From contig JACIWA010000005.1 in NCBI GenBank assembly GCA_014361195.1, positions 1 to 64,000 on the forward strand: a stretch of 64,000 nucleotides of DNA, written 5' to 3'. Position 1 is the stretch's first letter. Every line of letters starts with the position of its first letter. The notes beneath the pieces are model-generated. The model ran no database searches, had not been told where the DNA came from, and saw only the letters and a list, made by a program, of their open reading frames with translations. This DNA is from Thermoplasmatales archaeon. Its GTDB lineage: Archaea > Thermoplasmatota > E2 > UBA202 > JdFR-43. Of this stretch, positions 22,299 to 55,846 are shown piece after piece. The position numbers and the translations under genes were made by a program.

Positions 22299-22360
22299 CT
22301 TTTATTATGTAATATAAAACTCTATTTAAATTTTCACAAAATAAAAAGAGAAGGAGGGGA

Positions 22361-26383: not shown

Positions 26384-26398
26384 TTGTTTTCACCCCTT

Positions 26399-29300: not shown

Positions 29301-32300
29301 AGATGGGCTTCAAATGAAATATATCCAACTCTTGAATCATTATCATATTCGTCATTATCATAAATTGCCCACCAATAGTAGTCATAAATTTCCTCATCTT
29401 CCTCGCTTATTCCTGGAATTTCACATCCACATAGATATTCATCTCCATATCCTTCTCCTTCCTCGCCATTCACTTCATATCTCCAGTATATTGCATCTAT
29501 TCCAACAGCGCATTCATTTTCTGGCAGGTCAGAAGCATTTATTGTTATCGGAGCACATGCTCTGAGGAAGCCATGTGAAGTTATATCAACCCAGAAGATT
29601 GCCCAGTAATCAGTATTATGATTTCCATATCCATTTGGAGTATGGAAGTAGAATACTATCTGTATGTCCTGTCCATAATAGTCCCAGAGAGGAATGTCCT
29701 CAATATCATCATGCACATCACTGCTAAATGATTTCAACAGATGCCATGTTCCGCTTTCATCTATTAGATATACATATGCAGAAGCATAATCGCTCTCGAA
29801 ATAGTGCCTGAAGGTTAAATTGCTGAATTTTGGCAAATCATAAATTACAGGTGAATATAGATATTCTTCCTGCTCACCATAATAATAGCCATGCACAACA
29901 GCAGCATCCGCTATACTTCCATCAAACCATGGGCTGACATATTGCTCCCATCCATAATAGCAGTTGCCGGCATAATTTCCTTCTCTTCTCCAGTCTCCAT
30001 ATTCAGTTAAGCCATCTGTTGGCGGGAATCTTGGAACAGCTACTGCATCAACTGTATGCTTGTACATATCAAATTTATCCTCAAATATCGCTTCTTCGAC
30101 TTCTCTTATTTCAACCTTTATATCATCCACGAACCATCCCTCATCTGTTGTATAGTAATTGCTATAGAACCTGAATCTTATCTTAATTATCTTTCCTATA
30201 TAGTTGCTTAAATCAATGAATTCCTGCACCCAGTCCCTGCTTCCAGAATAACTTGCAAGTTGTTGCCATGTTCCATCTGCATATACTTCAACATATGCTG
30301 CATCACCATAATCATTGTCCATATCATATTTATGCCAGAAAATTAGCATTGCTTTCTTTCCAGCATAGCCAGTAGTTAAATCAATATCCCCGCTTATAAG
30401 TGCATCATTCATGCAATTTAGATATTGATAAGCTGGCTCAACTCCACAATACCATGAATGATTTTCAGAATGAGAATCATAATCTGTTACATGCCATTTG
30501 CTTGTTTCAAGCATCTCCGCATTCCAGTTTGCAAGTGTATTGAAGAAATCGGGAGTGAAATAAAATTCTGTTTCATTTTTTACAGTAACATTATCTATGA
30601 ATACTCCATTATACTGGCCGTTATAACTATCATCGCTTACAAACCTGAATCTTATCCATACCGTTGAATTTCCAATATATTGAGACATATCTATTGTCTT
30701 TGTTATCCATCCACTCTGCCCGCTGATTGTTTCAAGAACTGTCCAGTTAATGCTGTCATTGCTTGCTTCAATGTATAAATTATCATCGGTTTGCAAATAG
30801 TACCATATATTGAATGACAAACTAACTGTACCTGTTGCACCTGATAAATCAATTGGATTTTTAATTGTTAAGGTATCATCCCAGTTGCATGCATATAGCC
30901 CGCCTCCATTTTGAGCATTTCCAAGGCTTAAATCTCCGCACCATGCTGCTGGCTTATTTGGAAGATTTTCGCTCCATCCTGGAGAGGGCGGAGAAGCAAC
31001 TGGTAACCTATTTACAAGCTGCCAGTAGCTTGTCTGCTTAACAGTTAAATCATCTATGCTCCATATTATGCTATTTTCAACATCATCATCAAGCAATGTT
31101 GCAATTCTATGAATTGAGCCAACCCATACATCATCTACCAGCAGACCGTTGTATGGGAATACATTGCTTAAATAATAGCAGTGGAAGCCAATATATACTT
31201 CCTGCCCAGCATATTCTGATAAATCAATTTCCACATGCCTGTAAGATGTGTCGCTGAATATGCCAGAATCCCATACCTCAACAAATGCACTTGTATCTGT
31301 CTGTGTGGTTATGTTATTTACTCCAACCTTTAAGCCAGCAGAGCCACCATAATATACCTTATACCAGAATGTTAGATTTCCATCTTCTGGAATTGTTATC
31401 TTTGGAGTTATTAACCATGCACATGGTGAGCTATAAGTCCATGCCATTGCCGCATATCTTCCAGAATGAGCAATATTATCTTGCCACAGGAACAATGGCT
31501 CTTCTGATTTTATGCTCCATGTGCTTCCATCTCCATCCACAACTGCCCATCCATTTCCAAATGGTGCCTCAAAGCTTTCATATAAGCTTGTGGTTGTGTT
31601 TCCAATTGCTCCATGCTCTGGAAGTATTTCCTCTACTTCTGGCGAACTTGCATCTACATAATAAATCTGATGATGCAATGTGCTATTATGGCATGCCCTA
31701 TCCTTTGCAAAGTAATACAAATCATGCTGGCATTCCTCATTGAATACTATTCCTCTGCTATCATCATATATGAACCACCAGTAGTTTGCTATTTCTGGAA
31801 CATCCGGCTGAATTTCGCTTCCATTCCTTGCTGCTGGATGCCCTGGCACTGGATAATAGTTTCCATTCCATTCATACCTGTAATAAATGTTTTCTATGCC
31901 CGATGGATGGTCTCCTGGGTCATAAGCAGATAAATTGATTCTTACTCCGGCTCTCAGATATTGAGTTACATTCTCCACTTCAGCCCACCATTGCCATACT
32001 CCCATTCTTAAGAATTCAAGATTATCATAAACATTGATTGTATAAACCAAGGATGAGCCCGCTGGAACATTTACTGTATAAACCTTGTAATTTACATCGC
32101 TTCCGTTTTCAAGAGTTATTCCACTATCACCAAAGATTTCCTCAACATGCAAACGCAATATTAAATCATGTGTCATATCGTTATTGTATATTGTGAAGTT
32201 AATATATTGTATCTTATCTCTATATTGCCCTTCTGGATTTGGTATCCATCCATCTGCATAGCTCCAATACCATGCATCTCTTACATGGAATGTTCCTTCA

Positions 32301-35300
32301 AGCCAATCTGTTTCATTTTCAAAAGTATCATCAACATCTATTTCAACAGGTGTGTAGTAGCCATGCTCTGGATGTTCCTTGCTTACTACTGGTTCAAACT
32401 CATCAACTTCATAAACCTGCATATATACTGGCGTGTGATGGCATACATTGTCCTTTGCCCAGTAATACAACCAGTGCACGCACTCCTCATAGAAATGCAC
32501 ACCTATGCTTTCATCATATTCATACCATAAATTATAACCATTGAAATAATAATCAATTTCTTCCTCGCTGTAATATTGAGTTATATCAACAATCTTTTCT
32601 CCATGCGGGGCATCTGTTTCATTTGCTGGATGACGAATTTGCTCATCCCAGCCAATTTCATAGGCATAATATATTCCCTCTATTCCACTTGCACATGGAT
32701 TTTCACGATATGCAACAATTGCAAACTTCCAGTCGCCTTCTGACTGCTCACTGCTTATATACGGTGCTCCCGCTGAATATACATCAACATCTGCATGATA
32801 CCAGTGCACAAGTGAGCCATTTTCACGGAATGCATCAATTATATAGGTATGCCCTGATTCAACACTGACTGGTTCATCAAAGACAAATTTCACCCACTCG
32901 CCCGTGCTGGAACCTGTGAGATGAACTGTTTTACTGCCGAGCTCATTTCCAGGAAGGAATGGAACATCATTATGGAGGTATAGTGTAACATTTGCATCTC
33001 CTGTCCAGTCAAGCCACAGCCACACCTCATTTATTGCGGAAATGTTCTCACTTACCTGGAAGGTCTGGGCATCCCAAGGCCAGTTTGGAATGCTCTGCCT
33101 TAATTGAAGTTCATCTTCTCTGTCACCCAGATTCTGGAACTGGTCAACAAGTTTAAGTATGTCGGGCATATCCTTTGCTGTTAGATTAATTCTATCACAT
33201 GCCCTTATATATGAAACTGGCTTGAGTTTAATATCTCCCTCGCTTATCTCTTCAACCAACCATTCTGATTCCTTTCCTGTCTTTGTATTGTAAAGGATGA
33301 AATGAGTTACATTGTAATTTATAACTACATAATATGTGCTGAATTCTGGATAAACTTCATGCCATAGCGAGCCATCTGCAAATGGATCTTCTCCTCCAAC
33401 ATATTCAATATACATATATTCCTCATTTGTTTCATTGTATAGATATGCTGTAAATGTTTGATAGTCGCTAAAATCATATTCAATGCTCCATTCTGATTCT
33501 TCTCCTGTTTGATTCTTAAGTATTACATCATTGTTATATCCTACAATTTCATAAATGTTGCAGTAATCTGGATAAACTTCATGCCATAGCGAGCCAATTT
33601 CAAATGGCTCTTCTCCTCCATGATATACGAGATATATGTATTCATTATTTGTTGTAGTGTATAAATACAATGTATATGCTATTGGTTCAACTTGATATAA
33701 CCTATCTACATTATATTTTTCATCATGCATAATCCAGTACAAGTTTCCATATTTTTCAAAACCATCTATCAGATAATACCCTCTGCCATATTCTGGATAA
33801 AGCTCTTCATAAACTATCCCACCATCATCAACATCAACAAGAGGATGCAAGTATATTGATTCCTCTTCCTTGTAGCACCATGGATGCTCTTTGCTTACTT
33901 CTGGCTCAAATTTATCAACATAAATTTCTTCTATTAAAACATCGCTGACTATTGAATTATCTAGCCAATCACTTGCATTATAGAAGTAATAAATCTTATG
34001 ATAGCATTCTTCCTCAAAGTGCAATGTTATTGAAGGTGTTTGTGGGGTAATCTCCCACCATAGCTCACCACCTATATTCACAACTTCTCCATATTGAGTA
34101 TCATTTTCATTCATAGGATGTTTCTCTATGTAAGGAGTTGTGAAGTTTGTATATTCATATCTGAAATAGAATATGAAATCGCGCCATCCTACCCAGCATT
34201 CTGGCTCATCAGTTAAGTTGAGATAAAATTCCTTGCATGCCCTTACAAACATCTTTCCTGTCTGCTCATCAAAGTAGAAGCCATGTTCATCTGGATATTC
34301 AACTTTAAGCTTTGGCGGGCTGTTGTCAACATAATGGGTTTGATTTACAATTCGAACATTTCCAACAAGGTCTTCAGCTCTTATCTCAATATAATGAGTG
34401 CATTCCTCATGGAATTTAATTCTTGTAAATTCTATCTCATCACCTATTGCAACATACCAGTATTTTCCATCAATTAGAGTTATATTGCTATTTCCACAAT
34501 ATGCATCAGTTAAATCAATTGGATGCCATGTTTCATTGAAATATATTCTATACATCAGGCTCTTCAATCCAACTCCACCCATGCATCCCTCATCCCATGA
34601 AGACAAATCAAGAATTGCCTGACTTGTTAGCCATGTATTGTTGAGATGGTCAACAAGTGTTTCATTGTACAGTGAATACATATATGGATAATTATATGGA
34701 TAAATTGCATAATATTCAATCTTGAATGTGAAGTCCCATGAATTTTTTATTTCTCCATCTACCATTGCAACTCCATCCGCATATGGCCCTGGATTCGGAT
34801 AATTGCTCTTTGCCTCCCATTTGATTGGTGGTTGGCCATAGTAATTCAATCCAATCCAGTAAGTAGCGCCATGCTCAACATATAACCTCTCTGGCAGGTG
34901 GAATTGTAGCCATCCAGTATAATCTCCATCTCTATATAGCGGTTCAGTTTCTGCAAGCAAATCGCCTGGTTCGCCCTCATCGTCTCCATAAATTTCTATC
35001 CATATTGGATATGCGCTGTTAAATGTTCCATTTACATAAACACTTACCGCATCTATATAGCTCCATGGTGCCTTGAAGCTCTGATAATCAGTTGTACTTG
35101 TATCTGAACTGTTATTCCTCTCTATTTGCTGAAGAGCGGTTATTTTTTCTATATCTTTTCTTATTGCTGGAGGTGTGCAATCAACCATATCTTTTTCTTT
35201 AAATGTATAATTATTGCCAACATAGTCAATTGCCCATATTTCTGGCTCATGGAAGCATTCTCTATATCTTTCTGGCAAATCTCCAAAGTGGAATAGATAA

Positions 35301-37390
35301 GATATCTTTCCATATTCTGGATTTAAGTCCTTTACTACAATTGTTATATTTTCAACATGCCATGTTTGAGGCATATTATAAAATCTTATATAATCGCAAT
35401 AATCCAAAGTACCATTTCCATTATCAGTCCAGTTGGTAATATTATATTCATCCCCTTCATAGTACCATGTTGTATTAACTGGGTTTGAGAGCAATTTTCC
35501 TAATTCTGTTGTTGTTGTATTAACAATAATTGTTGCATTTTGGCTTTCATCATAAAGCGTCATTGTTATTTCAGCAAGGTTATCAACAACAACAATCTGA
35601 TCAACAGGTGTAAGGAGTTGCTGTTGCCCTCCTGGAACTCTTGTCTCATTCCAATATATATTCATTCCAAACATCCATACTCCTACTCCTCCTCCGCATC
35701 CATCATCTGTAACATTAAACCATATAGGAGTTGAGCAATTCACCCATAGCCATCCCCGCTCATCAATATATTTTGGCTCTCCTATTGTTTTATTTATTGT
35801 TGGAGGTGTTGCATCAACCGCAATATCAACTGAATATTGTTGATGCTCATGCCCGAGATAATCAACTATATCCCATTTTATTTCATGGAAGCATTCCTCA
35901 TTGAAGCACAATTCAACTGTAATAAATCCAACTCTCTTATCAGTATCATTTGCATCATTGTCATGAACTTTAACTTCCTTAATCTTTTGATAATTATTTG
36001 GCTCATTTGGATTCCACCATATTGAATAATTGAGCCACTCTACTCCAGAAGCACATCCTTCTGGCAAATCATAGGCATATATTATCATTGGAGTACATTT
36101 CTTGATTGCGGTATAAATATCTCCTCCATAATTCAAAATTGAATTTGGCTCACCAAATTCATATTCCTCTTCTCTTGGTGATGGGCTATTATCAACATAA
36201 TGAATTTGCCTATTAACTGGCTCACTATTTGTTCCATTTCCTGCATAGAACTCAATTATATGCTCACATTCCTCAGGAAGATTGAATGGACCTTCATATT
36301 CAGTCCAATCTCCACCATTTATTCTATATAGTATTCTATCATAATCTCCTTCTGCTTCAAGAGTAAATGATGTTTCATTTGTTACATAGCTCTTTTCAAT
36401 TCCATAATACCATGAATGGCTTGCTGATTTTCTTCTATGATTGGTTATATGCCATAATCCATTATATGTCCAATTCTGCACTCCATTTTCAACATCATCG
36501 CTAAATGGAACATTTCCTCCAAATTCAGTTATCCTTATGTCATCTATATACCATCCTTCCCAGTAATTATATGACTCATTAACTGTATTAAATTCAAATA
36601 TTATTACAATTTCATCTGGGACATATGCGGATATATCTATGCTTTCATACACCCATGCGGGCGGGGTGTTAAATCCTCCTGATCCATAATATAAGTAATC
36701 CCTATCCTCTGGCTCAGTCGGATTACTATCTGGATTTAAAGTTTTTAATAAATTCCAATTGTATCCTCCATCAGTTGAAATATATACATTCATTAAATCA
36801 CAGCTTGATGGCTCCACTCCTTCAATTTGCCACCATGTCCAGAAAGATAGCCAAGCAACATCTTGGGTAACATTTATTATAGGAGAAACGAGATAGCCAT
36901 GATTTGCAGAGCCATTGTCAAAATCATATTTTTTGAATTCTGGCTCACCAACTGTTTTTGTTGTCTTTGGTGTTCCAAGAGTTATGTTCAGCCACATATA
37001 TCCCTGGTTATCAATTTCACTTTCATCAATATATGTAAAGCTTCTTCCTTCCCTTCCATCATAAGTAGCAATTGCAAGCAGTGGATCGCCATCGTACCAT
37101 TCCATCCATGGCGGAGCTGATGTCCCTCCTCCAAGAGTTATGCTATACCTGCCATCTACATCTGTTATATTTTCTCCCCATGCTCCTGTATGTTCATCTC
37201 TTATTCTTACAGTTGCTCCCTCCAAAGTATAGCCATTTTCATCATATACATATCCAGTTATAGTAAATGGATCCGTCTTCGCTTTTGTTTCAAGAAGCAT
37301 CATTAATCCTGTTCCAAGCAACAGGATTGCTACTGCGGTCACTATACCCCTTCTCAACACCAAACTACCTATCGCATTTTTTTCTTTCAT
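26399..37390 (-). CDS. Giant secreted dockerin protein (about 3663 aa)
   Basis: I chose the ATG at 37390 (eight codons inside the longest frame) because a GGGGG Shine-Dalgarno sits 6 nt upstream. A membrane/signal segment (residues about 13-33) and a carboxypeptidase-regulatory-like domain (44-130) lead into more than a dozen Ig-like modules. These share a TPP start, a conserved Cys before GV, an EECxH element and a terminal DxxGN. Several jelly-roll domains resembling cleaved-adhesin/MAM modules lie near the N-terminus and in the middle (about 31590-29560 on the DNA). The last 58 residues are a type I dockerin with two calcium loops, DFNGDGRVNVIDLYYI and DLDNSGKIDAGDIYML, ending KWTG. It is likely exported and docked onto a cohesin, perhaps of the gene 15 bp downstream. 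No catalytic domain is recognised. Confidence 0.82.
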   Translation of the reverse strand: MKEKNAIGSLVLRRGIVTAVAILLLGTGLMMLLETKAKTDPFTITGYVYDENGYTLEGATVRIRDEHTGAWGENITDVDGRYSITLGGGTSAPPWMEWYDGDPLLAIATYDGREGRSFTYIDESEIDNQGYMWLNITLGTPKTTKTVGEPEFKKYDFDNGSANHGYLVSPIINVTQDVAWLSFWTWWQIEGVEPSSCDLMNVYISTDGGYNWNLLKTLNPDSNPTEPEDRDYLYYGSGGFNTPPAWVYESIDISAYVPDEIVIIFEFNTVNESYNYWEGWYIDDIRITEFGGNVPFSDDVENGVQNWTYNGLWHITNHRRKSASHSWYYGIEKSYVTNETSFTLEAEGDYDRILYRINGGDWTEYEGPFNLPEECEHIIEFYAGNGTNSEPVNRQIHYVDNSPSPREEEYEFGEPNSILNYGGDIYTAIKKCTPMIIYAYDLPEGCASGVEWLNYSIWWNPNEPNNYQKIKEVKVHDNDANDTDKRVGFITVELCFNEECFHEIKWDIVDYLGHEHQQYSVDIAVDATPPTINKTIGEPKYIDERGWLWVNCSTPIWFNVTDDGCGGGVGVWMFGMNIYWNETRVPGGQQQLLTPVDQIVVVDNLAEITMTLYDESQNATIIVNTTTTELGKLLSNPVNTTWYYEGDEYNITNWTDNGNGTLDYCDYIRFYNMPQTWHVENITIVVKDLNPEYGKISYLFHFGDLPERYRECFHEPEIWAIDYVGNNYTFKEKDMVDCTPPAIRKDIEKITALQQIERNNSSDTSTTDYQSFKAPWSYIDAVSVYVNGTFNSAYPIWIEIYGDDEGEPGDLLAETEPLYRDGDYTGWLQFHLPERLYVEHGATYWIGLNYYGQPPIKWEAKSNYPNPGPYADGVAMVDGEIKNSWDFTFKIEYYAIYPYNYPYMYSLYNETLVDHLNNTWLTSQAILDLSSWDEGCMGGVGLKSLMYRIYFNETWHPIDLTDAYCGNSNITLIDGKYWYVAIGDEIEFTRIKFHEECTHYIEIRAEDLVGNVRIVNQTHYVDNSPPKLKVEYPDEHGFYFDEQTGKMFVRACKEFYLNLTDEPECWVGWRDFIFYFRYEYTNFTTPYIEKHPMNENDTQYGEVVNIGGELWWEITPQTPSITLHFEEECYHKIYYFYNASDWLDNSIVSDVLIEEIYVDKFEPEVSKEHPWCYKEEESIYLHPLVDVDDGGIVYEELYPEYGRGYYLIDGFEKYGNLYWIMHDEKYNVDRLYQVEPIAYTLYLYTTTNNEYIYLVYHGGEEPFEIGSLWHEVYPDYCNIYEIVGYNNDVILKNQTGEESEWSIEYDFSDYQTFTAYLYNETNEEYMYIEYVGGEDPFADGSLWHEVYPEFSTYYVVINYNVTHFILYNTKTGKESEWLVEEISEGDIKLKPVSYIRACDRINLTAKDMPDILKLVDQFQNLGDREDELQLRQSIPNWPWDAQTFQVSENISAINEVWLWLDWTGDANVTLYLHNDVPFLPGNELGSKTVHLTGSSTGEWVKFVFDEPVSVESGHTYIIDAFRENGSLVHWYHADVDVYSAGAPYISSEQSEGDWKFAIVAYRENPCASGIEGIYYAYEIGWDEQIRHPANETDAPHGEKIVDITQYYSEEEIDYYFNGYNLWYEYDESIGVHFYEECVHWLYYWAKDNVCHHTPVYMQVYEVDEFEPVVSKEHPEHGYYTPVEIDVDDTFENETDWLEGTFHVRDAWYWSYADGWIPNPEGQYRDKIQYINFTIYNNDMTHDLILRLHVEEIFGDSGITLENGSDVNYKVYTVNVPAGSSLVYTINVYDNLEFLRMGVWQWWAEVENVTQYLRAGVRINLSAYDPGDHPSGIENIYYRYEWNGNYYPVPGHPAARNGSEIQPDVPEIANYWWFIYDDSRGIVFNEECQHDLYYFAKDRACHNSTLHHQIYYVDASSPEVEEILPEHGAIGNTTTSLYESFEAPFGNGWAVVDGDGSTWSIKSEEPLFLWQDNIAHSGRYAAMAWTYSSPCAWLITPKITIPEDGNLTFWYKVYYGGSAGLKVGVNNITTQTDTSAFVEVWDSGIFSDTSYRHVEIDLSEYAGQEVYIGFHCYYLSNVFPYNGLLVDDVWVGSIHRIATLLDDDVENSIIWSIDDLTVKQTSYWQLVNRLPVASPPSPGWSENLPNKPAAWCGDLSLGNAQNGGGLYACNWDDTLTIKNPIDLSGATGTVSLSFNIWYYLQTDDNLYIEASNDSINWTVLETISGQSGWITKTIDMSQYIGNSTVWIRFRFVSDDSYNGQYNGVFIDNVTVKNETEFYFTPDFFNTLANWNAEMLETSKWHVTDYDSHSENHSWYCGVEPAYQYLNCMNDALISGDIDLTTGYAGKKAMLIFWHKYDMDNDYGDAAYVEVYADGTWQQLASYSGSRDWVQEFIDLSNYIGKIIKIRFRFYSNYYTTDEGWFVDDIKVEIREVEEAIFEDKFDMYKHTVDAVAVPRFPPTDGLTEYGDWRREGNYAGNCYYGWEQYVSPWFDGSIADAAVVHGYYYGEQEEYLYSPVIYDLPKFSNLTFRHYFESDYASAYVYLIDESGTWHLLKSFSSDVHDDIEDIPLWDYYGQDIQIVFYFHTPNGYGNHNTDYWAIFWVDITSHGFLRACAPITINASDLPENECAVGIDAIYWRYEVNGEEGEGYGDEYLCGCEIPGISEEDEEIYDYYWWAIYDNDEYDNDSRVGYISFEAHLPENCTHDLYYFAKDKLCHSSELKHERWYVDGTPPETWLGISWGEHPWIPKNNESGNKTYYTPQEVKPEVICINDDVHFYANHSGEACIYPYNWQNNTYYRWVWYNESSGLYEFYPTPDTPGAINGSSIVVSQHADLIQFNDDEDFWFGQNPPFGGYIYWMHYEEPFYFTEGCEHWLYYFSKDDLCNTEEPVVWHVGVDDKAPESKLDFEITNGNLYYNETSNVYYFQNCSWVVINTTDLPRNPDCQTGIWYIEYTVWRWMGESVDVYLATNQILPANTPVYMDGDLVGWIISGIDSNNNKVWDYGDYVTISWLTTSPYHPGETLFYLIKEISGTPGSYKVTLGDPYASGWKEPLKSWTRVYTSDIPSVGDGIKCDKWYDEEGREYIRIWIHLGELANSFACGKYEIHWIVYDYNNMTEGEKKQDVIIDCTPPRTKKEFEMPYVEETIAGDEVIHWVRPDTKIWLNASEDFAWDSGVNEIWYQFWNEQPILLWKLNDANHSKHYFTVEEAVKIILNDPDATVEDYFNARPSLNKTIIEIYHWAVDNVGHVEDKQKSKQHIYIDYMPPTSRVDEIIPYERDEIPFDIDVVDIVDHGSEVSGPVGVCKVEVYYSYSENNITWSDWMLYTTFNIPYEQRLDVPNQTFSFNAPEGGGWYRFISIAYDCLGNEEVPPYEHGTYDAECFVALDREPPVIAKEYGQPSIEIELDGETGHAITSNTMIYLNATDMPEENYVGLDKIYWSFDGTMWYETPSFSGARYGSVSFAPEDFGLSEGIVYHLFFKASDMRGQMSDEMKQKFIIDNSPPETSIVIGNNSTMPFDITINANDEIAGVKLIKLYFRYSSDGSTWTEWQEYGSYNGSSYTFSFIYKPSEFCYYKPGYYEFYAYAEDNLGNAKGEPVAEASCYVPPIKEDFNGDGRVNVIDLYYIISNWFKDTSSPDWETVQIYDLDNSGKIDAGDIYMLILKWTG

Positions 37391-37447
37391 TTTTATCCCC
37401 CTAATAGATTGCATCGTTAGGAGAAATATATTCGCTATTTATATAAA
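37391..37447 (-). promoter_or_regulatory. Promoter and leader of the giant dockerin gene
   Basis: The minus strand reads TTTATATAAATAG (37435-37447), about 50 nt before the ATG, implying a leader of roughly 25 nt. GGGGG at 37397-37401 with a 6-nt spacer forms a strong Shine-Dalgarno. The 18-nt stretch from AGGGGG through ATGAAA is identical to that of the beta-helix gene at 41876. Confidence 0.55.
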
Positions 37448-42170: not shown

Positions 42171-43859
42171 TTATCTATAATTTTTTTCATAAAATTCTTT
42201 TATTTTTTCTTCGCCTGGCAATTCAAATTTTTTCCAGAAATTTATTACTCCTCTTAACTCTTCTTCCTTTTCCTGCCCCTCAAAAATTTCCTTCAAAAAA
42301 TTGCTCCTTTCCTCAATATCTCTTTTAAAAAATTCAATTATTTCCTTTGGAGGATAGAAGCGCAATAAATTAAACCTTTCAGAAAATCCATCAATATATT
42401 CATCTACCTCCCCCGGCTTCGGAATCAAATAATTGAAAACGGGATGATGAACCCATTCCCTTATTTTCTTCTCAGCAACAAGAGCTATCAACTTCTTTGT
42501 CTCCTCCACCCTTATTTTTTCTCCCTCGCCCATCACTTTCCCTTCCAAATTGCACTGCCCAACATATCCAGTATTTACAACAAAAAATATTAACTTGTGC
42601 AATCCAATATCCGAGTAAGTTTTTAACTTCAGCCAGGCTTGATCCGCCTGCTCACCAACCATAAAATCAGTTGCCGCATACCTCCTCACCCTCTGCCCCG
42701 CTCCTCCTTCTATTGCAGAAGTTATAACTGTTTCGCAAGCACTATCAAATGCAACAGCCATCTCAGGCTCAACAACTCTCAAAATTGGCTCAAGTATATC
42801 ATATCTTCTGAAACTCAATCCTTCAGCTCTAAGATATTTCTCAGCTCCCCATTTTTTATTAAGAATGCTGAATTTAAAGATAAATCTTCCATTTGTTGTC
42901 TTACTCTTTTCATAAGATTTGCATTTCAGCTTCCCCGCTTTTCCATGTGGAACAAGAGCTTCATATTCTCCTATTTTTTTCAAAACAAAATCAACACCTT
43001 CGCAATCAATATTAAGAGCAATAACAATTTCATTTTCCCTTGATGAAATCAATCCGGCCCATTCTGGCGAGCTCTCATCTATTCCTTCAGATTTAGCAAA
43101 ACTGCTTGCTTCAAGTCCTATAAGTTTTATTCTATCAACTTTCCTATTTTTATAAATTGGTATGCCAACCAAAGCATCATCCTGCTCAATATCCTTTCCT
43201 ATTGTAAGAGTTGTTTTTCCTGTCCCGCTTAGCCCTTTAATAATTGTTCCATCAAAGCATCCCGCATGATACGAGATCATTCCCTGCATTTCCGCTCTAT
43301 TCCATACCATTGTCAAATTTGGCTTTTTAAATGCTCCTCCAAAGTAATCAATTCCAACATTAACAACTCTTCTCAAATCTTCTTTAGCTTCAGTGAAATC
43401 AAAAAGAGAGATTGGTTCCTCATAATTTTTACTTATCTCCTTTGCTTCTCTTTTATATTCTTCTGGCAATCCTTCAGGAATTATAATATTGAAGCATTTC
43501 GAAACCCCTTCAAAAGGAAAAAGCATATGCTTACCCATCCAAGCAATATATGCTGAATGAGGATTTTCAATGCTTACAAAAACCTTTACTCCAGTTTTCC
43601 ACTCCTCTCCATAGCAACCATCAATCTCAATCGAACTCGCTTCTTTAATATATCTCTCAACAATCTTGAATATTTCTTTCCCCTCTTCCTCATCAAACCT
43701 TCTCTGCCCTTTTCCTAGCTTCTCCGCCATATAAAAAACCCTGTCGGGTATGCGCCCCTTCTGGCGAGATGCAAAAAGATATTGCCCATCTGAAGTTAAA
43801 GCATAATATGGCTTAAGGAATTCTTTGAAGAATTCATCGCTAGGATTTTTTATTTTCAT
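42171..43859 (-). CDS. pckA: Phosphoenolpyruvate carboxykinase-like enzyme (ATP type)
   Basis: The 562-residue protein has the PEPCK kinase-1a P-loop GLSGTGKTTLT (about residue 210) and downstream acidic and Arg-rich segments typical of the ATP-dependent family (GYVGQCN; GAGQRVRRYAATDF). PEPCK converts oxaloacetate plus ATP to PEP and CO2, the entry to gluconeogenesis. The N-terminal 190 residues differ from classical E. coli-type enzymes, so it may belong to a divergent PEPCK-like family of unproven activity. It is followed on the metabolic side by a PPDK gene elsewhere in the window. It lies 16 bp downstream of the asparagine synthetase gene on the same strand. Confidence 0.72.
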   Translation of the reverse strand: MKIKNPSDEFFKEFLKPYYALTSDGQYLFASRQKGRIPDRVFYMAEKLGKGQRRFDEEEGKEIFKIVERYIKEASSIEIDGCYGEEWKTGVKVFVSIENPHSAYIAWMGKHMLFPFEGVSKCFNIIIPEGLPEEYKREAKEISKNYEEPISLFDFTEAKEDLRRVVNVGIDYFGGAFKKPNLTMVWNRAEMQGMISYHAGCFDGTIIKGLSGTGKTTLTIGKDIEQDDALVGIPIYKNRKVDRIKLIGLEASSFAKSEGIDESSPEWAGLISSRENEIVIALNIDCEGVDFVLKKIGEYEALVPHGKAGKLKCKSYEKSKTTNGRFIFKFSILNKKWGAEKYLRAEGLSFRRYDILEPILRVVEPEMAVAFDSACETVITSAIEGGAGQRVRRYAATDFMVGEQADQAWLKLKTYSDIGLHKLIFFVVNTGYVGQCNLEGKVMGEGEKIRVEETKKLIALVAEKKIREWVHHPVFNYLIPKPGEVDEYIDGFSERFNLLRFYPPKEIIEFFKRDIEERSNFLKEIFEGQEKEEELRGVINFWKKFELPGEEKIKEFYEKNYR

Positions 43860-44901: not shown

Positions 44902-45342
44902 ATGGACAGGAAAGATTTTTTAATACTTAAAGAGCTAAAAGAAGATGCAAGAAAAACTGTTAATGAAATAGCTTCCAAAATAAATCTTCCTCGCACAACA
45001 GTAGGGGAAAGAATAAAAAAGATGGTAAAAGAAGGAGTAATTAAGAAATTTACCACAATAGTAAACTATGAAAAAATCGGGAAAAATATAACATCTTTTG
45101 TTCTTGTTTCATTCTTACCAAACCCAAAAATATCCCAGAGGCAACTTGCAAGAGAAATTTCAAGAATAGAAAACGTATATGAAGTGTATATAATATCTGG
45201 TGAGTGGGATTTACTGCTGAAAGTAAGAGGAAGAGATATGGAAGAAATAGGAAAACTGGTTTTAGATAAAATAAGGGCAATGGAAGGAGTTGGAAAAACA
45301 GTTACATGCACATGTTTTAGTGTTGTAAAAGAAGAGTTTTAG
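44902..45342 (+). CDS. Lrp/AsnC-family transcription regulator
   Basis: The 146-residue protein has an N-terminal winged helix-turn-helix (FLILKELKEDARKTVNEIAS, then LPRTTVGERIKKMVKEGVIK) and a C-terminal RAM ligand-binding domain (about 65-140, with VYEVYIISGEWDLLLKVRG). Members form dimers and octamers that bind amino acids. Its location next to asparagine synthetase and a palindrome suggests that it senses asparagine or a related amino acid and controls both genes; that is inference. Confidence 0.92.
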   Translation: MDRKDFLILKELKEDARKTVNEIASKINLPRTTVGERIKKMVKEGVIKKFTTIVNYEKIGKNITSFVLVSFLPNPKISQRQLAREISRIENVYEVYIISGEWDLLLKVRGRDMEEIGKLVLDKIRAMEGVGKTVTCTCFSVVKEEF

Positions 45343-45343
45343 T

Positions 45344-45417
45344 GGGCCCGCGGAGATTTGAACTCCGGACCTCCCGGTTATCAGCCGGGCGCTCCAACCT
45401 GGCTAAGCTACGGGCCC
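45344..45417 (-). tRNA. tRNA-Ile (GAT anticodon)
   Basis: The 74-nt cloverleaf on the minus strand has the acceptor GGGCCCG/CGGGCCC, anticodon stem CCCGG/CCGGG with loop CTGATAA (anticodon GAT), and T-loop GTTCAAATC. CCA is not encoded and no intron is seen. Confidence 0.95.
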
Positions 45418-45441: not shown

Positions 45442-47754
45442 TTAAAGTTTTTTACCGCAATTGATACAATTTCCTACTCTTTTTGCACAGCTCCTGTGAT
45501 AAAGGGCACCACAATTGCATTTCAAAATATTTGCTTCCTGTTTAAATGAACCAAGGCAAACCGAGCATTTTTCAACTTTTTCCTCTTCAATAAACACTTT
45601 TTTCTTTCTGAGCAGAAGATATGCTGGAATAGCTAAAAGTGGAATAAAAACAAAATAGATAAAATTATTCTTTCCATATTTTATTGAAATTTCCAGCTCA
45701 TTATTTTTTTCATTTCTTTCCTCTATTTCATTATACGGGTCAACAATAATTTTTATTTTGCTTACTCCTTTGAAATGAATCTCTTTTTCATATTCTTCAT
45801 AAATATTGAAAATAGAATAATTCTCTCTACCATCTAAAAAAACAGAGCATTTAACATTTTCACAATATCCTCCATCATTTTTTATCTTCAAAATTAAAGT
45901 TATTTCATCCCCTTTCTTTGGCTTATCTGGCAAGTAGCTTGCTTCAACAGAAAAATCTGGAATAATAACATAAATCAATTTATCTACTTCATGATAATAA
46001 GCTCCATCAAAAACACTCAGCTTAACCCTATATTTCCCTTCTCTATCAAAAGCATGCGTCACATTTCTTCCATACCCAATGCTCCCGTCCCCAAAATTCC
46101 AGCTATAATTAACTCCCTCTCCAATCGCTGAAAAATATACATTCACGCCAGGCGCAGGCCTCGCTGGAGAAAATTCAAAATAAACATTTGATTTAACAAT
46201 TATTGCTATTGTGGAGTTACTTTTTGCTCCTTTATCATCAGTAACAGTCAATTTTGCAGTATAATTTCCAGTATTATTATAAGAATGCTGCTTTGTTGAA
46301 GGAGGGGAGCCAGAGCCATTATATTCTGTAATTCCATCATTATCTATATCAAGCTCCCAGTAAGCTATGTAGCCATCTTCATCACTTGCATTAATTATGA
46401 AATTAACCACAAGAGGAGCATATCCCTCGCTGATATTTACTTGAAGTGAGCATTTTGGTGGTTTATTTTCTGGAGGAGGTGGAAAAGGAGGAGATGGAGG
46501 TGGAGAAGGAGGAGAAGGTGGAGTATATACAATAGTTGTAAATATCCATGTGTCAGATGAAGTTTCTGCTATGCTATCATTTGCAATTGCATACCATTCA
46601 TATGTTGTGTTATAAGCCAAATTATACCATGTTATTGAAGTATCTGTATTATTTGCAACATTTGTTTTTGTTCCTATTAATTGCCATGTTACATTTCCTA
46701 ATTTACGGCCATAGAAACTAACATTCATCAAATTTCCATCTATATCAACAACATGAACAGTAAGATTTGCATTTGTGCTTAAATTTAGAGAGTTATTTGC
46801 TGGAGTCACTAGCAAAGGCTTATTTGGCACATCATTTACCGGTGTTATATTTATGAAAACTGTTGCTTCATTGCTCCAAGCGTTGCTATTATCCTTTACT
46901 TTATATTTGAATGAATCTGAGCCATGATAATTTGCATTAGGTGTGTAGGTTACTGTTCCATTTGCATTTACTGTTACATTTCCATGAGATGCATTTTGGG
47001 TTATTGTTACACTGCTTGCATCTATTGTTCCATCTATATCATAGTCATTTTCCAATATGTTTATTATAACAGGTGTATCTTCATCTGTTGTGCAATAATC
47101 ATTATTTGCAACCGGAGGATCATTTACTGGTGTTATAGTGATATAAACTGTTGAAATGTTGCTATAATCTTGTCCATCATATGCTTTATATGTAAAACTA
47201 TCCTGGCCACTATAATTTGCATGAGGTGTATAAGTAAATGAGCCATTTGAATTCAATGTTAAGCTACCATGAGTTGGGCCATTTACTAAAACAGCGGTTA
47301 AAGTATCTCCATCTGCATCGCTGTCATTTCCCAATACTCCAGGTGCATTTACAGTTAATTTTGTATCTTCATTTGTTGTGTAATAATCATCATTTGCAAC
47401 AGGTGGATTGTTTCTTCTCAATGAAATATTTACAAAAGAAAATTCTTCATTAGTTAAAACTATTATAGCGCTTTTATAATATTCCTCATAAAAAACTTCT
47501 ATGAGAACCTCATCTCCAACCTCCCATTCTTTAAAATTTCCTAAATTGATTCCATACCATCCATCTGGATATTCCTCTGCTATTCCACTTTCATTTGTTC
47601 TAAGCACAGTTACAATAACAGTTGCTCCACTTACCGGCAGGTTGTTTAAATCAACATGAGTCCAGATTGTGTAAGGTGTGCCTTGTTGGGCTAAGATTAA
47701 ATTAGAAAGAAGGATGGATGATACAATTAATGGAATAAATTTTTTTATTTCCAT
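45442..47754 (-). CDS. Transmembrane adhesion protein with cytoplasmic RING-like zinc finger (770 aa)
   Basis: The order is: signal peptide (1-22); carboxypeptidase-regulatory-like domain (25-112); two Big_9/cadherin-like domains (115-300, with DYYTTNEDTKLTVNAPGVLG); a fibronectin-like domain (305-405); a Pro-Ser linker (SPPPSPPFPPPP); PKD domains (about 430-600); a CARDB-like domain (600-690); a membrane helix (about 698-716); RKKK; and a C-terminal finger. The finger reads CSVC-x11-CNC-x4-H-x2-C-x6-C-x2-C, a RING-type spacing. By the positive-inside rule the finger is cytoplasmic. No anchor gene partner is seen. The finger could bind protein partners or simply be a structural zinc ribbon. 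Confidence 0.75.
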   Translation of the reverse strand: MEIKKFIPLIVSSILLSNLILAQQGTPYTIWTHVDLNNLPVSGATVIVTVLRTNESGIAEEYPDGWYGINLGNFKEWEVGDEVLIEVFYEEYYKSAIIVLTNEEFSFVNISLRRNNPPVANDDYYTTNEDTKLTVNAPGVLGNDSDADGDTLTAVLVNGPTHGSLTLNSNGSFTYTPHANYSGQDSFTYKAYDGQDYSNISTVYITITPVNDPPVANNDYCTTDEDTPVIINILENDYDIDGTIDASSVTITQNASHGNVTVNANGTVTYTPNANYHGSDSFKYKVKDNSNAWSNEATVFINITPVNDVPNKPLLVTPANNSLNLSTNANLTVHVVDIDGNLMNVSFYGRKLGNVTWQLIGTKTNVANNTDTSITWYNLAYNTTYEWYAIANDSIAETSSDTWIFTTIVYTPPSPPSPPPSPPFPPPPENKPPKCSLQVNISEGYAPLVVNFIINASDEDGYIAYWELDIDNDGITEYNGSGSPPSTKQHSYNNTGNYTAKLTVTDDKGAKSNSTIAIIVKSNVYFEFSPARPAPGVNVYFSAIGEGVNYSWNFGDGSIGYGRNVTHAFDREGKYRVKLSVFDGAYYHEVDKLIYVIIPDFSVEASYLPDKPKKGDEITLILKIKNDGGYCENVKCSVFLDGRENYSIFNIYEEYEKEIHFKGVSKIKIIVDPYNEIEERNEKNNELEISIKYGKNNFIYFVFIPLLAIPAYLLLRKKKVFIEEEKVEKCSVCLGSFKQEANILKCNCGALYHRSCAKRVGNCINCGKKL

Positions 47755-48426: not shown

Positions 48427-51400
48427 TTAACCGGTCCAATGCTTTATTATTTCTATGATATCATTTACATCAACTATTCCATCTTTATTTACATCCGCTC
48501 TTTCATCCCAATCTGGATGGTTCGGAGTTTGCATCCAATGCATGATTACAAAGAAAATATCTTCTGCATTTACTCTTCCATCTGAGTTCACATCCCATGG
48601 AGCATAAACCTTGCAATATGCCTTCGGGACGGTGCTTGCATTTGGCAATGGCTCATGATTTCCAAGTAAATCATATGCCACTGTGTAGAATTGATAATAT
48701 CCACTCTCTCCAAAGAAAATCCATGTAAAGTTGCTATATTTCTCTCCATATAATGTCCAGTTTGTCCAAGTAAAATTATCTTTGCTATATCTATAATAAA
48801 GGGCTACTTTTTTAACCCCAACACCCACATCAGTTGCATTAACTTTTATTTCTATTCTTGTAGAATATGTTAAATATGGAATTGGCTCAATAATGGAAGA
48901 AGGAATAAAGCAATCAACAAAAACATCATTCCATTTCATTTGCTCAACATTTCCAGCATTATCAATGCTATAAAATTCAATTTCATATTTCCCACACGGA
49001 GAATAATTGTATAAAATTCCAAGATCCGCAAGATTTATTGGACGATATGGAAGCGTGCCAGAATATTCTCTCCAGTCAAATAGCAATTTCCAACCATTTT
49101 CAAATTTAAATATTCTGTAAAATGTTTTATTAACTCCTGAGCCATTATCAATTGCCACCAAATCTATTGTTGTATTTCTGAGAATATAATGCACAACGTA
49201 GCCACCAAAACTTGAAATATTAACAACTTCTCCATTAAATCTCTTATAAGTGTAAGGTGGCTCAGATATCACAGGTGTATATACATAAGCTTCCCCATAT
49301 GCCCCTTCATTGCATGTCGCATTTACATAATTTCTAATAATAGAGCCATCACTTACATTGCTCCCAACTTTTACCTTCACCAAAATTTCATAGGATGCAG
49401 ATGGCACAAGAGTGGGTATTACCCATGTATCAACGCCTGAAGAAGGCATTGGGAAAGTGTATACTACTGTTACCCTACTATCATATACTTCCTTTACAAC
49501 CACATTTGTTGCACTCGCCAAACCATTATTCTTTATTTTTATTCTATAAGAAATATTTGTCCCAGCCTCAGCAAATTCTGGTGTGCTTTCTTTTGTTACA
49601 AGAAGTGAAGGAGATGCAACAGTTGTATTTTCCCAAGTTTGATTAAATATTCCTTGCAAACATGTTACATTTACATAATTATGCAAAATTGTTCCATTTG
49701 GTAGAGGACTTTTAACTTGAACTCTTATGTTTATTGTTTTTGTCTCACTTACATTTAATGTTCCTAAATTCCATGTATTGTTTCCTGAGCTTGGAGAAGG
49801 ATTTGATGAAATGAAAATGATATTGCTATCATATAATTCAGTAACAGTTACATTTGTTGCATTTTCACTTCCATTATTTGTTACATTTATTGTATAATTT
49901 AAATAGCTTCCTGGAGTAACTGGATCATTGCTATCTTGCTTTGTTATTATTAGCAATGGAGCTGATATAACTGTTGTATTTTCCCAAGTTTGATTAAATA
50001 TTCCTTGCAAACATGTTACATTTACATAATTATGCAAAATTGTTCCATTTGGTAGAGGACTTTTAACTTGAACTCTTATGTTTATTGTTTTTGTCTCACT
50101 TACATTTAATGTTCCTAAATTCCATGTATTGTTTCCTGAGCTTGGAGAAGGATTTGATGAAATGAAAATGATATTGCTATCATATAATTCAGTAACAGTT
50201 ACATTTGTTGCATTTTCACTTCCATTATTTGTTACATTTATTGTATAATTTAAATAGCTTCCTGGAGTAACTGGATCATTGCTATCTTGCTTTGTTATTA
50301 TTAGCAATGGCTTTTTCTCAATAACCAAGTGTTTCTGAGTATGCTTTTCCTCCTTATTCTCAACATTATCTACAGAGAACCATCTTATTTCATTTATTCC
50401 AGCATTTGTAAGATTAATAAGAACAGATATTTTCCCAAATTCCGGATTTTTATCATAAGTAGTGTTATCATAAATTGTCGCATTTTTTACCATTGTATCC
50501 ACTATTCCATCCCGGTTGCTATCATGCCATATTTCATAATAGAGATATTTAACACCTGATGAGCAATTGCCTGTATCAGTTGCATTCAGCCAAATAGGAG
50601 TTTCTGATGTTACATTATAAACATCATCACTCACAACAGTTTTATTTGTAAGAGGTGGAAAAATATCAACTCTTAAAAAATTAACATTCCTAAGCCCTCT
50701 TTCCAAGCACCAAAAAGTGTCATTGCTTCCATTTTCTCTCCCCCAGTCATAGAAAAGGATATTAAGCAAACTATCTCCATCTACATCTCCGACCGCTGGC
50801 GATGTCCTCACCCTGCCATTTGTTAAAAATTTATCGATAAGCTTACCATTGCAATCAATCTCGTAAAGATATCTATCTTCGGAGCCAACAAATATGGAGA
50901 GCTTACCTCCAACCCCTTCATATAATCCAGTTCTTCTTTCATTTCCCCTAAACATCGGCCACTCTCTCGCAAAAGCACTACTTGTCTGTGATGCAAGTGC
51001 GGGTGATGAATAAATTGGGCCTCCTGTTGTGAAATTCCAGAGCATTGAACCATTTCTTCTGAGGCAGTAAAGTTTGCTATCATTAGAACCAAAAACTATT
51101 TCATAAAAGCCATCCGCATTTATGTCACCAATCGCTGCAGATGAATAAATTGGGCCTCCTGTTGTGAAATTCCATTCTTGCAAACCAACAGCTCCATTCC
51201 ACTGCAAGCAATAAAATTTTCCATCTGTTGAACCAATTAAAATTTCTTTATAGCCATCTCCATCAATATCCGCAATTGCAGGTGATGAATAAATCGCTCC
51301 CCCTGTTGTAAAATTCCATTCCTGAAGGCCATTTGATCCATTTAATACATATACTTTTCCATCAGCGGAGCCAAAAACTACTTCATTTCTTCCATCATTA

Positions 51401-52494
51401 TCAATGTCACCAATTGCGGGAGTTGAAATAACATTTCCAGATGTATTGAAAACCCATAAAACATCCCAATCAGTTCCTTCATAACCTATATGATTTGGAT
51501 ATCCAGGGAAGTAAGGAGAAGTGCCATCTCCATTGAGAGGCAATGTAAATCCCTCATTCATTCCATCACTATTATCCCCATCAAAGCACCATAAATTTTT
51601 AAAAGGGTTATTCCCTATAACAATTTCTAAGCCACCAACACTTTCATTTAATTCACCTATTGCTGGGGAAGAATGCCATACATAATTACCACCTGTTGCA
51701 TTTGTTGTTACATGAGGGAATGTCCACTTAAATGTTCCATTATAATTAATCACTTCAAGAAGCCACCCGCTTGTTGTGCCACCCGCAACATCTAATTTTC
51801 CATCACCATTAACATCAAAAATTGCTGGCGAGCTTCTTGATTCATCAGTTTTTGTATCAAGAGCCCATAATATGCTTCCATTATAATTAAAGCATCTCCA
51901 TATCCCTCTCGCAGTAGCATTTATTTCTGGATAAAAATTTGTTATTTCATCGCTCCCGCACGCTATTTCAAGTTTTCTATCTCCAGATAAATTTGCAATC
52001 GCAGGAGATGAGCCAAACACACAACCATTTGGAGCATGAACAACATTCGGCATAAAGCTATAATTCCACTCCTTATACAGGTAATGGCCATGTTTCTCAA
52101 CATTTCCCGCCCAGTCAACAGCATAGAATTCTAACTTATGCAGACATTCCCTATTTATTGTTATTCTTACAGATATTTTTTTAGATTCATTGTTCATGTC
52201 TTGAGGTGAGTTATCGTTAATCGTTCTGTTTTCTATTATTATATCCACTGCTCCATCATTGTCTATATCCCTCCATATTTCGTAATAAAGATATCTAACT
52301 CCTGTACCAACATCTGTTGAATTTAGCCATATGATAGTTGAATTACTTATCCATTCCATCCCGTCTTTTATGTATAAAGGGCCATAATAACTTTTTATTG
52401 TTACTGGTGGAGTGTTATCAGTTGCCCCTCCTCTATGGAGAATAATGCATATAAGTAACACTATAAACAAATATGCATATTTTTTTAAGCTCAT
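48427..52494 (-). CDS. Secreted dockerin protein with FG-GAP/PQQ-like propeller and DUF11 repeats (1355 aa)
   Basis: A signal peptide (1-24) is followed by an Ig-like domain (with a RECLH element like the other cluster proteins) and a propeller of about 420 residues. The propeller repeats SSPAIGDIDNDGRNEVVFGS and YCLNGS-type blades, as in FG-GAP/PQQ repeat proteins. Next come Ig-like and three DUF11 domains (LNYTINVTNNGSENATNVTV), two nearly identical, then two more Ig-like domains. The final 58 residues form a dockerin with calcium loops DVNSDGRVNAEDIFFV and DVNKDGIVDVNDIIEI, ending KHWTG. No anchor is present, so retention by a cohesin partner is likely. It is on the same strand as the cohesin cluster but 6.5 kb from its first gene. 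Confidence 0.82.
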   Translation of the reverse strand: MSLKKYAYLFIVLLICIILHRGGATDNTPPVTIKSYYGPLYIKDGMEWISNSTIIWLNSTDVGTGVRYLYYEIWRDIDNDGAVDIIIENRTINDNSPQDMNNESKKISVRITINRECLHKLEFYAVDWAGNVEKHGHYLYKEWNYSFMPNVVHAPNGCVFGSSPAIANLSGDRKLEIACGSDEITNFYPEINATARGIWRCFNYNGSILWALDTKTDESRSSPAIFDVNGDGKLDVAGGTTSGWLLEVINYNGTFKWTFPHVTTNATGGNYVWHSSPAIGELNESVGGLEIVIGNNPFKNLWCFDGDNSDGMNEGFTLPLNGDGTSPYFPGYPNHIGYEGTDWDVLWVFNTSGNVISTPAIGDIDNDGRNEVVFGSADGKVYVLNGSNGLQEWNFTTGGAIYSSPAIADIDGDGYKEILIGSTDGKFYCLQWNGAVGLQEWNFTTGGPIYSSAAIGDINADGFYEIVFGSNDSKLYCLRRNGSMLWNFTTGGPIYSSPALASQTSSAFAREWPMFRGNERRTGLYEGVGGKLSIFVGSEDRYLYEIDCNGKLIDKFLTNGRVRTSPAVGDVDGDSLLNILFYDWGRENGSNDTFWCLERGLRNVNFLRVDIFPPLTNKTVVSDDVYNVTSETPIWLNATDTGNCSSGVKYLYYEIWHDSNRDGIVDTMVKNATIYDNTTYDKNPEFGKISVLINLTNAGINEIRWFSVDNVENKEEKHTQKHLVIEKKPLLIITKQDSNDPVTPGSYLNYTINVTNNGSENATNVTVTELYDSNIIFISSNPSPSSGNNTWNLGTLNVSETKTINIRVQVKSPLPNGTILHNYVNVTCLQGIFNQTWENTTVISAPLLIITKQDSNDPVTPGSYLNYTINVTNNGSENATNVTVTELYDSNIIFISSNPSPSSGNNTWNLGTLNVSETKTINIRVQVKSPLPNGTILHNYVNVTCLQGIFNQTWENTTVASPSLLVTKESTPEFAEAGTNISYRIKIKNNGLASATNVVVKEVYDSRVTVVYTFPMPSSGVDTWVIPTLVPSASYEILVKVKVGSNVSDGSIIRNYVNATCNEGAYGEAYVYTPVISEPPYTYKRFNGEVVNISSFGGYVVHYILRNTTIDLVAIDNGSGVNKTFYRIFKFENGWKLLFDWREYSGTLPYRPINLADLGILYNYSPCGKYEIEFYSIDNAGNVEQMKWNDVFVDCFIPSSIIEPIPYLTYSTRIEIKVNATDVGVGVKKVALYYRYSKDNFTWTNWTLYGEKYSNFTWIFFGESGYYQFYTVAYDLLGNHEPLPNASTVPKAYCKVYAPWDVNSDGRVNAEDIFFVIMHWMQTPNHPDWDERADVNKDGIVDVNDIIEIIKHWTG
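49622..50310 (-). repeat. Two 338-bp identical repeats, 351-bp period
   Basis: Copies at 49622-49959 and 49973-50310 appear identical, including synonymous positions. Each encodes a complete DUF11-type domain. Confidence 0.88.
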
Positions 52495-55577: not shown

Positions 55578-55649
55578 GCTCCCGCCGGGATTTGAACCCG
55601 GGTCTTCGGCTCGAGAGGCCGATATGATTGGCCGCTACACCACGGGAGC
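55578..55649 (-). tRNA. tRNA-Glu (CTC anticodon)
   Basis: The 72-nt cloverleaf has acceptor GCTCCCG/CGGGAGC, anticodon stem TCGGC/GCCGA with loop CTCTCGA (anticodon CTC), and T-arm CCGGG-TTCAAAT-CCCGG. Its first base is also the last base of the stop codon of the upstream small gene. CCA is not encoded. Confidence 0.95.
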
Positions 55650-55846
55650 TATCCGCCAGTAGCAACATTTATTATTTTTATCTTTTTCCCTCTCAACTTT
55701 TCGTTATAGGGCATTGGTTTCCCATCCGCTATTATGAGAGATGAATCTACTGCCATGCCCAGCAAATTTAGCAATTCCTCACCCGTAGCATTTTTGCTTA
55801 TCTCAACCTTCCTTGTACCTTCTCTCGTTTCAACCTCTATTTCCAT
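55649..55846 (-). CDS. Ubiquitin-like beta-grasp protein (SAMP/MoaD/ThiS type)
   Basis: The 65-residue protein reads MEIEVETREGTRKVEI, then ELLNLLGMAVDSSLIIADGKP, and ends KIINVATGG. Small size, beta-grasp pattern and the C-terminal Gly-Gly define the family; such proteins are activated by E1-like enzymes as sulfur carriers or are attached to lysines (small archaeal modifier proteins). The ATG at 55846 was chosen because longer extensions run into the opposite-strand tRNA-Ser. The stop codon TAG shares its final G with the 5' base of tRNA-Glu, so one transcript probably carries both. No E1 gene is in view. It may serve tRNA thiolation, molybdopterin synthesis or protein modification. Confidence 0.85.
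   Translation of the reverse strand: MEIEVETREGTRKVEISKNATGEELLNLLGMAVDSSLIIADGKPMPYNEKLRGKKIKIINVATGG

Follow-up and report, generated by a model that had tools for sequence, protein, structure and literature searches.

Gene and domain organization

The DNA analyzed here (the window) is a stretch of 64,000 nucleotides from contig JACIWA010000005.1 of the Thermoplasmatales archaeon assembly GCA_014361195.1. A gene on its reverse strand encodes a 770-residue protein with the layout of a single-pass surface protein and a zinc-finger-like C-terminal tail. The features of this gene, and of two other genes considered below, are as follows:

45442-47754, reverse strand: RING-tailed single-pass surface protein, 770 residues (open reading frame with ATG start and its translation; Pfam)
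47686-47754, reverse strand: signal peptide, residues 1-23 (MEIKK, then a hydrophobic run ending in LILAQ; recognized by eye)
46843-47412, reverse strand: two Big_9 domains, residues ~115-304 (PF17963, 165.6 bits)
45964-46467, reverse strand: two PKD domains, residues ~430-597 (PF00801 and PF18911; 62.1 bits for PKD; also found at 46003-46155 and 46210-46419)
45691-45960, reverse strand: CARDB domain, residues 599-688 (PF07705, 33.0 bits)
45607-45666, reverse strand: membrane helix, residues 697-716, leading into RKKK (19-residue hydropathy, 2.07; three K/R before and six after)
45457-45567, reverse strand: C4HC3 RING-like finger, residues 730-766 (PF14446 over the cut-off; profile matches to RING E3s)
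48427-52494, reverse strand: secreted protein, 1355 residues, with FG-GAP/propeller-like, DUF11, and CARDB regions and a C-terminal dockerin (PF00404, 35.6 bits at residues 1301-1351, over the cut-off)
55649-55843, reverse strand: SAMP2-like ubiquitin-like protein (PF21965, 26.9 bits against a cut-off of 27)

From the N terminus, the 770-residue protein consists of the signal peptide, a short unassigned domain, the two Big_9 domains, an FN3-like stretch recognized by eye, and a proline-rich linker, followed by the two PKD domains, CARDB, the helix at residues 697-716, RKKK, and the finger. This arrangement of signal peptide, Ig/PKD ectodomain, one helix, and C-terminal finger bears out the receptor-like layout proposed in the initial annotation. 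A tRNA-Ile gene (45342-45417) lies directly past the 3' end of the open reading frame. No cohesin domain (PF00963) was present in the Pfam listing for this protein to an E value of 1.

The C-terminal finger is RING-like

Eight Cys/His ligands in RING-type order had been noted in the C-terminal residues, and this description holds. The ligands, as read from the sequence, are C730, C733, C746, C748, H753, C756, C763, and C766; their spacing, C-x2-C-x12-C-x-C-x4-H-x2-C-x6-C-x2-C, gives the order C4HC3, unlike the classical C3HC4, with a short loop between the sixth and seventh ligands. C4HC3 is the ligand order of RING-CH and PHD fingers. Residues 728-766 matched Prok-RING_1 (PF14446) with 32.3 bits, above the curated cut-off of 29.1, and the 54-residue tail searched by itself scored 38.6 bits (E value, 1e-9). 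Among 55 tails, selected with a pattern that already fixes C-x-C-G-x3-H-x2-C, the second and third ligands are separated by 12 residues in 52 and the sixth and seventh by 6 residues in 54. Because this spacing is kept in relatives, the finger is not a chance arrangement of residues. All eight ligands are invariant in an alignment of 15 tails (A1), in which the 14 invariant columns, all inside the finger, are the ligands plus G39, K42, G53, A54, A61, and R63 (alignment numbering).

When a profile of 14 close tails (A2) was compared with the PDB, the best match was the Arkadia RING (1.8e-5). The phylum-wide profile (A3, 24 tails) matched RNF4 best (1.8e-6), with RNF165 (5.4e-6), Arkadia (7.4e-6), and AMFR (about 2.7e-5) also found; the PHD of Pygopus reached only about 1.4e-3. 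Single-sequence AlphaFold models of residues 679-770 and 720-770 were of low confidence (pLDDT, 55.5 and 53.7), and the low-confidence 720-770 model gave two Foldseek matches, the better with an E value of 7.7. Because of this low confidence, the support for a RING fold comes from the sequence profiles, whose matches to solved RING E3s agree with the original assignment of the finger as RING-type.

The finger was also inspected for residues associated with RING E3 function. The position two after the first Cys, an E2-contact position in RINGs, is V732 in the window protein and I, V, or L in 50 of the 55 tails. In the RING E3 of Caldiarchaeum, the reaction was lost on an I30Q substitution at the predicted interface with E2 (PMC5654768); V732 may correspond to I30, an equation that is our own. 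The residue after the seventh ligand is Pro in 44/55 tails and Ile in the window protein. The linchpin position directly after the eighth ligand holds Gly here and in 43/55 tails rather than a basic residue; one residue further on is a Lys, and Lys or Arg occupies that position in 28/55 tails. Active RINGs that lack a basic linchpin exist, so its absence lowers the case for membership among RING E3s without excluding it. The stretch between the sixth and seventh ligands, AKRVGN, lacks the Trp that is a classical E3 mark; this Trp is not universal among RINGs.

A search of the window's own genome with PF14446 gave one copy over the cut-off. PF14446 matches on contigs C10 and C1 of the same genome, in family f4, and in some other genomes proved to be other short zinc fingers. 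No match was found in phages or viral contigs that would point to a phage or viral origin.

Membrane topology

The finger had been placed in the cytoplasm, and the topology signals agree. The window protein has 26 N-glycosylation sequons before the helix compared to 10.3 expected from shuffled sequences (z, 5.5) and none after it, and the basic residues flanking the helix number three before and six after. Similar signals were seen in a pool of RING proteins, 43 of 50 being scored after 7 short or cut ones were dropped. In the 25 that have a helix nearby, sequons before the helix number 2.27 per 100 residues, compared to 0.96 expected; behind the helix there are 3 in 2994 residues, and K/R number 49 before and 101 after. 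For the 18 that lack a nearby helix, the density is 0.70 sequons per 100 residues compared to 0.47 expected, a figure that is raised because at least three of them (L239, L240, and the 1309-residue protein of L242) carry a helix further upstream. That the finger lies outside the cell, as a secreted structural zinc knot, is therefore extremely improbable: no point in its favor was found, and the sequons and flanking charges of both the window protein and the 25 pooled proteins contradict it.

Relatives and cohesin-dockerin neighbors

The initial annotation considered this combination rare in archaea, yet the tail is not an isolated case. Related genomes contain the same fusion with varied ectodomains: the tail was present in 12 of the 17 genomes of the window's family (f1), in 2/4 of f2, which belongs to the same order, and in 0/1 of f3, and the finger was found in 90 of 389 genomes of the phylum. 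Nine relatives with fingers 50 to 81% identical to that of the window protein have ectodomains that are rearranged mixes of PKD, Big_7, Big_9, Big_13, Flg_new_2, and CARDB; several relatives score below the Prok-RING_1 cut-off. In a survey of loci for a chosen part of the phylum's RING matches, the order signal peptide-ectodomain-helix-RING was seen in f1, f2, f15, f19, f37, and f53, short membrane-RING proteins (~160 to 260 residues) in f25 and f38, and long RING proteins without a nearby helix (~700 to 3200 residues) in f15, f33, f44, f54, and others. One 1987-residue frame (L139, G115:C136), in a genome with 10 matches, carries a tandem array of three such fingers.

An N-terminal cohesin was detected in the RING proteins of seven of the nine relatives at an E value of 1e-3, and in six of these over the cut-off. 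The upstream neighbor of the window's RING gene is the dockerin gene at 48427-52494. Given the cohesins in most full-length relatives and the dockerin ending the neighboring product, the earlier label of an adhesion ectodomain is too narrow. A dockerin gene likewise adjoins a cohesin-RING gene in two other genomes (G001:C9 and G020:C120). The linkage was seen only in these three genomes; no dockerin was seen beside RING genes at the other loci examined with a motif scan that also missed known dockerins, which were recognized by their ends and by profile search. Cohesins were found in 18 of the 22 genomes searched, and dockerins likewise in 18/22, the window's genome included. The 1355-residue protein is a candidate outside partner of the RING-tailed protein.

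Several other genes of the region were noted. Over 961 residues, the dockerin protein shares 79% identity with its counterpart from the same genus. At 19701-37414 on the reverse strand lies a gene cluster for large surface proteins bearing cohesin (865 and 1340 residues) and dockerin (3671 residues) modules, an archaeal cohesin-dockerin assembly. A 562-residue protein (42171-43859, reverse strand) has only a partial PEPCK_ATP match (58.5 bits), and a homologue adjoins both RING genes of G001.

The ubiquitin-like system of the same genome

E1, E2, and a ubiquitin-like protein (Ubl) are all encoded in the same genome as the RING tail. Contig C7 carries, in order on one strand, genes for a Ubl (85 residues), an E2 (168 residues), and a JAMM protein (209 residues) (G000:C7, L158:8275-9630, reverse strand). 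The E2 scored 56.7 bits against the UQ_con cut-off of 27 and has the HPN motif and catalytic Cys, both of which are kept in 13/13 aligned E2s (A4); the JAMM protein scored 52.4 bits against the JAB cut-off of 22.5. The Ubl falls below the cut-off of the ubiquitin profile (18.6 versus 25.4), and an 80%-identical relative exceeds it (30.4). It ends in DPVGGKCPYQRRY, that is, GG followed by eight residues, as if it would need processing, unlike the Ubl of relatives seen in the window's family, which end at GG. The E1, on contig C2, is 57.7% identical to an E1 inside an f2 operon. Relatives carry the same Ubl-E2-JAMM trio, which in f2 is preceded by the E1. The RING gene is on contig C5 and is unlinked to the operon on C7.

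These genes make the link to ubiquitin-like modification raised in the initial annotation possible, although not through the partner it named. The Ubl encoded 8 kb away (55649-55843) is SAMP2-like and probably not the partner; it was set aside in favor of the operon Ubl encoded with E2 and JAMM.

A small soluble RING/B-box-like finger protein with weak RING/B-box scores only (G000:C2:109866-109982, L010), similar to a protein in G017, is possibly another E3.

Co-occurrence and gene linkage with E2

E2 (UQ_con, PF00179) was found in 81/389 genomes of the phylum and in none of 14 control genomes. Over the 389 genomes, RING and E2 occurred together in 67, RING only in 23, E2 only in 14, and neither in 285 (Fisher P = 4.6e-41); without the window's order the counts were 58, 18, 7, and 284 (P = 2.8e-43), and by family, of at least 54 families, 25 had both, 5 RING only, and 3 E2 only (P = 2.5e-7), all of these Fisher values being computed as if related genomes were independent. 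With a wider RING profile, a finger was detected in two of the 14 genomes that have E2 only. An archaeal E2 profile, run without a positive control, found no E2 in the 23 RING-only genomes, 5 of which belong to f1 or f2; four of these five are 66 to 87% complete. Neither PF00179 nor the archaeal profile detected E2 in the RING-positive genomes of f19 (5/5), f32 (7/7), f40 (2/2), f47 (1), and f49 (1), and f19 includes signal peptide-membrane-RING proteins of 1445 and 1481 residues. In the window's family, 5/17 genomes have E2 and no RING tail, two of them being 97% complete.

In two families a related RING-tailed gene lies directly before E2. By genome, such genes immediately precede E2 or Ubl-E2 in G082, G093, G109, and G114, the finger lying 199 to 561 bp before the E2 match in G093, G109, and G114. 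The distance to E2 is 1.3 kb in G098 and 4.6 to 4.8 kb, on opposite strands, in G361 and G365. In G082 (L200), genes for a RING-tailed protein (3155 residues), Ubl, E2, and JAMM follow on one strand, with another signal peptide-membrane-RING surface protein encoded upstream of the operon. Co-occurrence across the phylum and gene linkage thus tie the finger family to the E2 system, and the membrane versions of the finger are presumably tied to it as well.

The JAMM protein of G082 (L200:14149-15069) has two C-terminal membrane helices, so that part of that system may be at the membrane too.

Possible function of the RING-tailed protein

Because the same genome encodes a Ubl and the enzymes that such a finger needs, the protein may be a membrane-bound ubiquitin ligase. 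With a probability that we put at roughly 0.55, it serves an archaeal system of ubiquitin-like conjugation as a membrane-anchored RING-type E3 or E3-like scaffold. Its ectodomain of Ig/PKD type would face outward and may assemble into a surface complex, as suggested by the N-terminal cohesin of most relatives and the dockerin protein encoded next door here. The single helix would span the membrane, with a linker of ~13 residues keeping the putatively zinc-binding finger close to the inner face. In this position the finger would bind E2 carrying the genome's Ubl, which the dedicated E1 would have activated, and would guide transfer of the Ubl to substrate proteins at the membrane; the JAMM protein would both mature the Ubl precursor and undo the modification. 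It is conceivable, if unlikely, that the protein is a receptor-type E3, in which the cohesin/dockerin complex senses the outside and controls attachment of Ubl at the membrane by the cytoplasmic RING, so that a signal would cross the membrane.

The strongest evidence against a membrane E3 is the existence of families with RING in which no E2 was found. These families, with the membrane-RING proteins of f19 among them, would suit a finger that serves as a zinc-stabilized docking module without ligase activity, its RING fold acting as an adaptor linking the surface protein to a partner in the cytoplasm. Burroughs and colleagues are said to have argued in 2011 that some prokaryotic RINGs are unrelated to ubiquitin, and the absence of the linchpin and Trp marks is in keeping with such a role. 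We regard it as possible but doubtful, because E2 co-occurrence is strong, related RING-tailed genes are linked in an operon with Ubl-E2-JAMM, and a hydrophobic residue is conserved at the E2-contact position. Alternatively, the tail might be the substrate side, its lysines accepting Ubl to control how the surface protein turns over or clusters. The window protein and most of its relatives have a Lys-rich juxtamembrane stretch; however, a stop-transfer sequence is basic in any case, and conservation sits in the finger, which holds all 14 invariant columns, making this very unlikely.

The findings place E2 and RING-tailed proteins across another archaeal phylum (25 of at least 54 families), and in several lineages a surface protein bears the RING at its inner end. 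If these proteins are ligases, E3s that combine a membrane anchor with an ectodomain are not confined to eukaryotes, and small recombinant parts could serve to test both their signals and their substrates. A receptor-type E3 would add a transmembrane ubiquitin-type signaling unit to a phylum for which none is known.

Comparison with known systems

Literature searches by title and abstract found nothing on Prok-RING in archaea, and none joining Thermoplasmatota, ubiquitin, and JAMM; no report of RING-tailed archaeal surface proteins was found among titles and abstract starts in a search of mostly open-access papers. The finger passes the curated Prok-RING_1 (PF14446) cut-off; what sets it apart is its place at the end of a single-pass surface protein with Big_9, PKD, and CARDB domains, and cohesin in relatives. 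A likeness to cohesin-dockerin surface assemblies lies in the cohesins over the cut-off in 6/9 relatives' RING proteins and in the dockerin of the window's neighboring gene; the differences are the membrane RING tail and, in the window protein, the lack of a detectable cohesin.

Eukaryotic transmembrane RING E3s, of which AMFR, RNF13, and ZNRF3 were among the A3 profile matches, are likewise membrane proteins with a cytoplasmic RING, and ZNRF3 and RNF13 have an ectodomain. Their finger is C3H2C3, whereas that of the window protein is C4HC3, and the ectodomain here is PKD/Big_9, with cohesin in relatives.

Aigarchaeota and Asgard archaea are known to have ubiquitin-type cascades comprising E2 and small RING proteins (PMC5654768), and several RINGs have been reported from a single marine group II genome (PMC4327156). 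The E1/E2/srfp cascade of Caldiarchaeum subterraneum (James et al. 2017, PMC5654768) shares an archaeal Ubl, E1, E2, JAMM, and RING with the system considered here. Its pro-ubiquitin has a short extension past the conserved end, like the Ubl of the window's genome, and the srfp finger has a two-residue misalignment and an extra Cys that resembles the C-x-C of the window finger. In Caldiarchaeum, srfp is a small operon-encoded RING protein, whereas the RING of the window protein forms a membrane tail and its gene lies apart from the operon.
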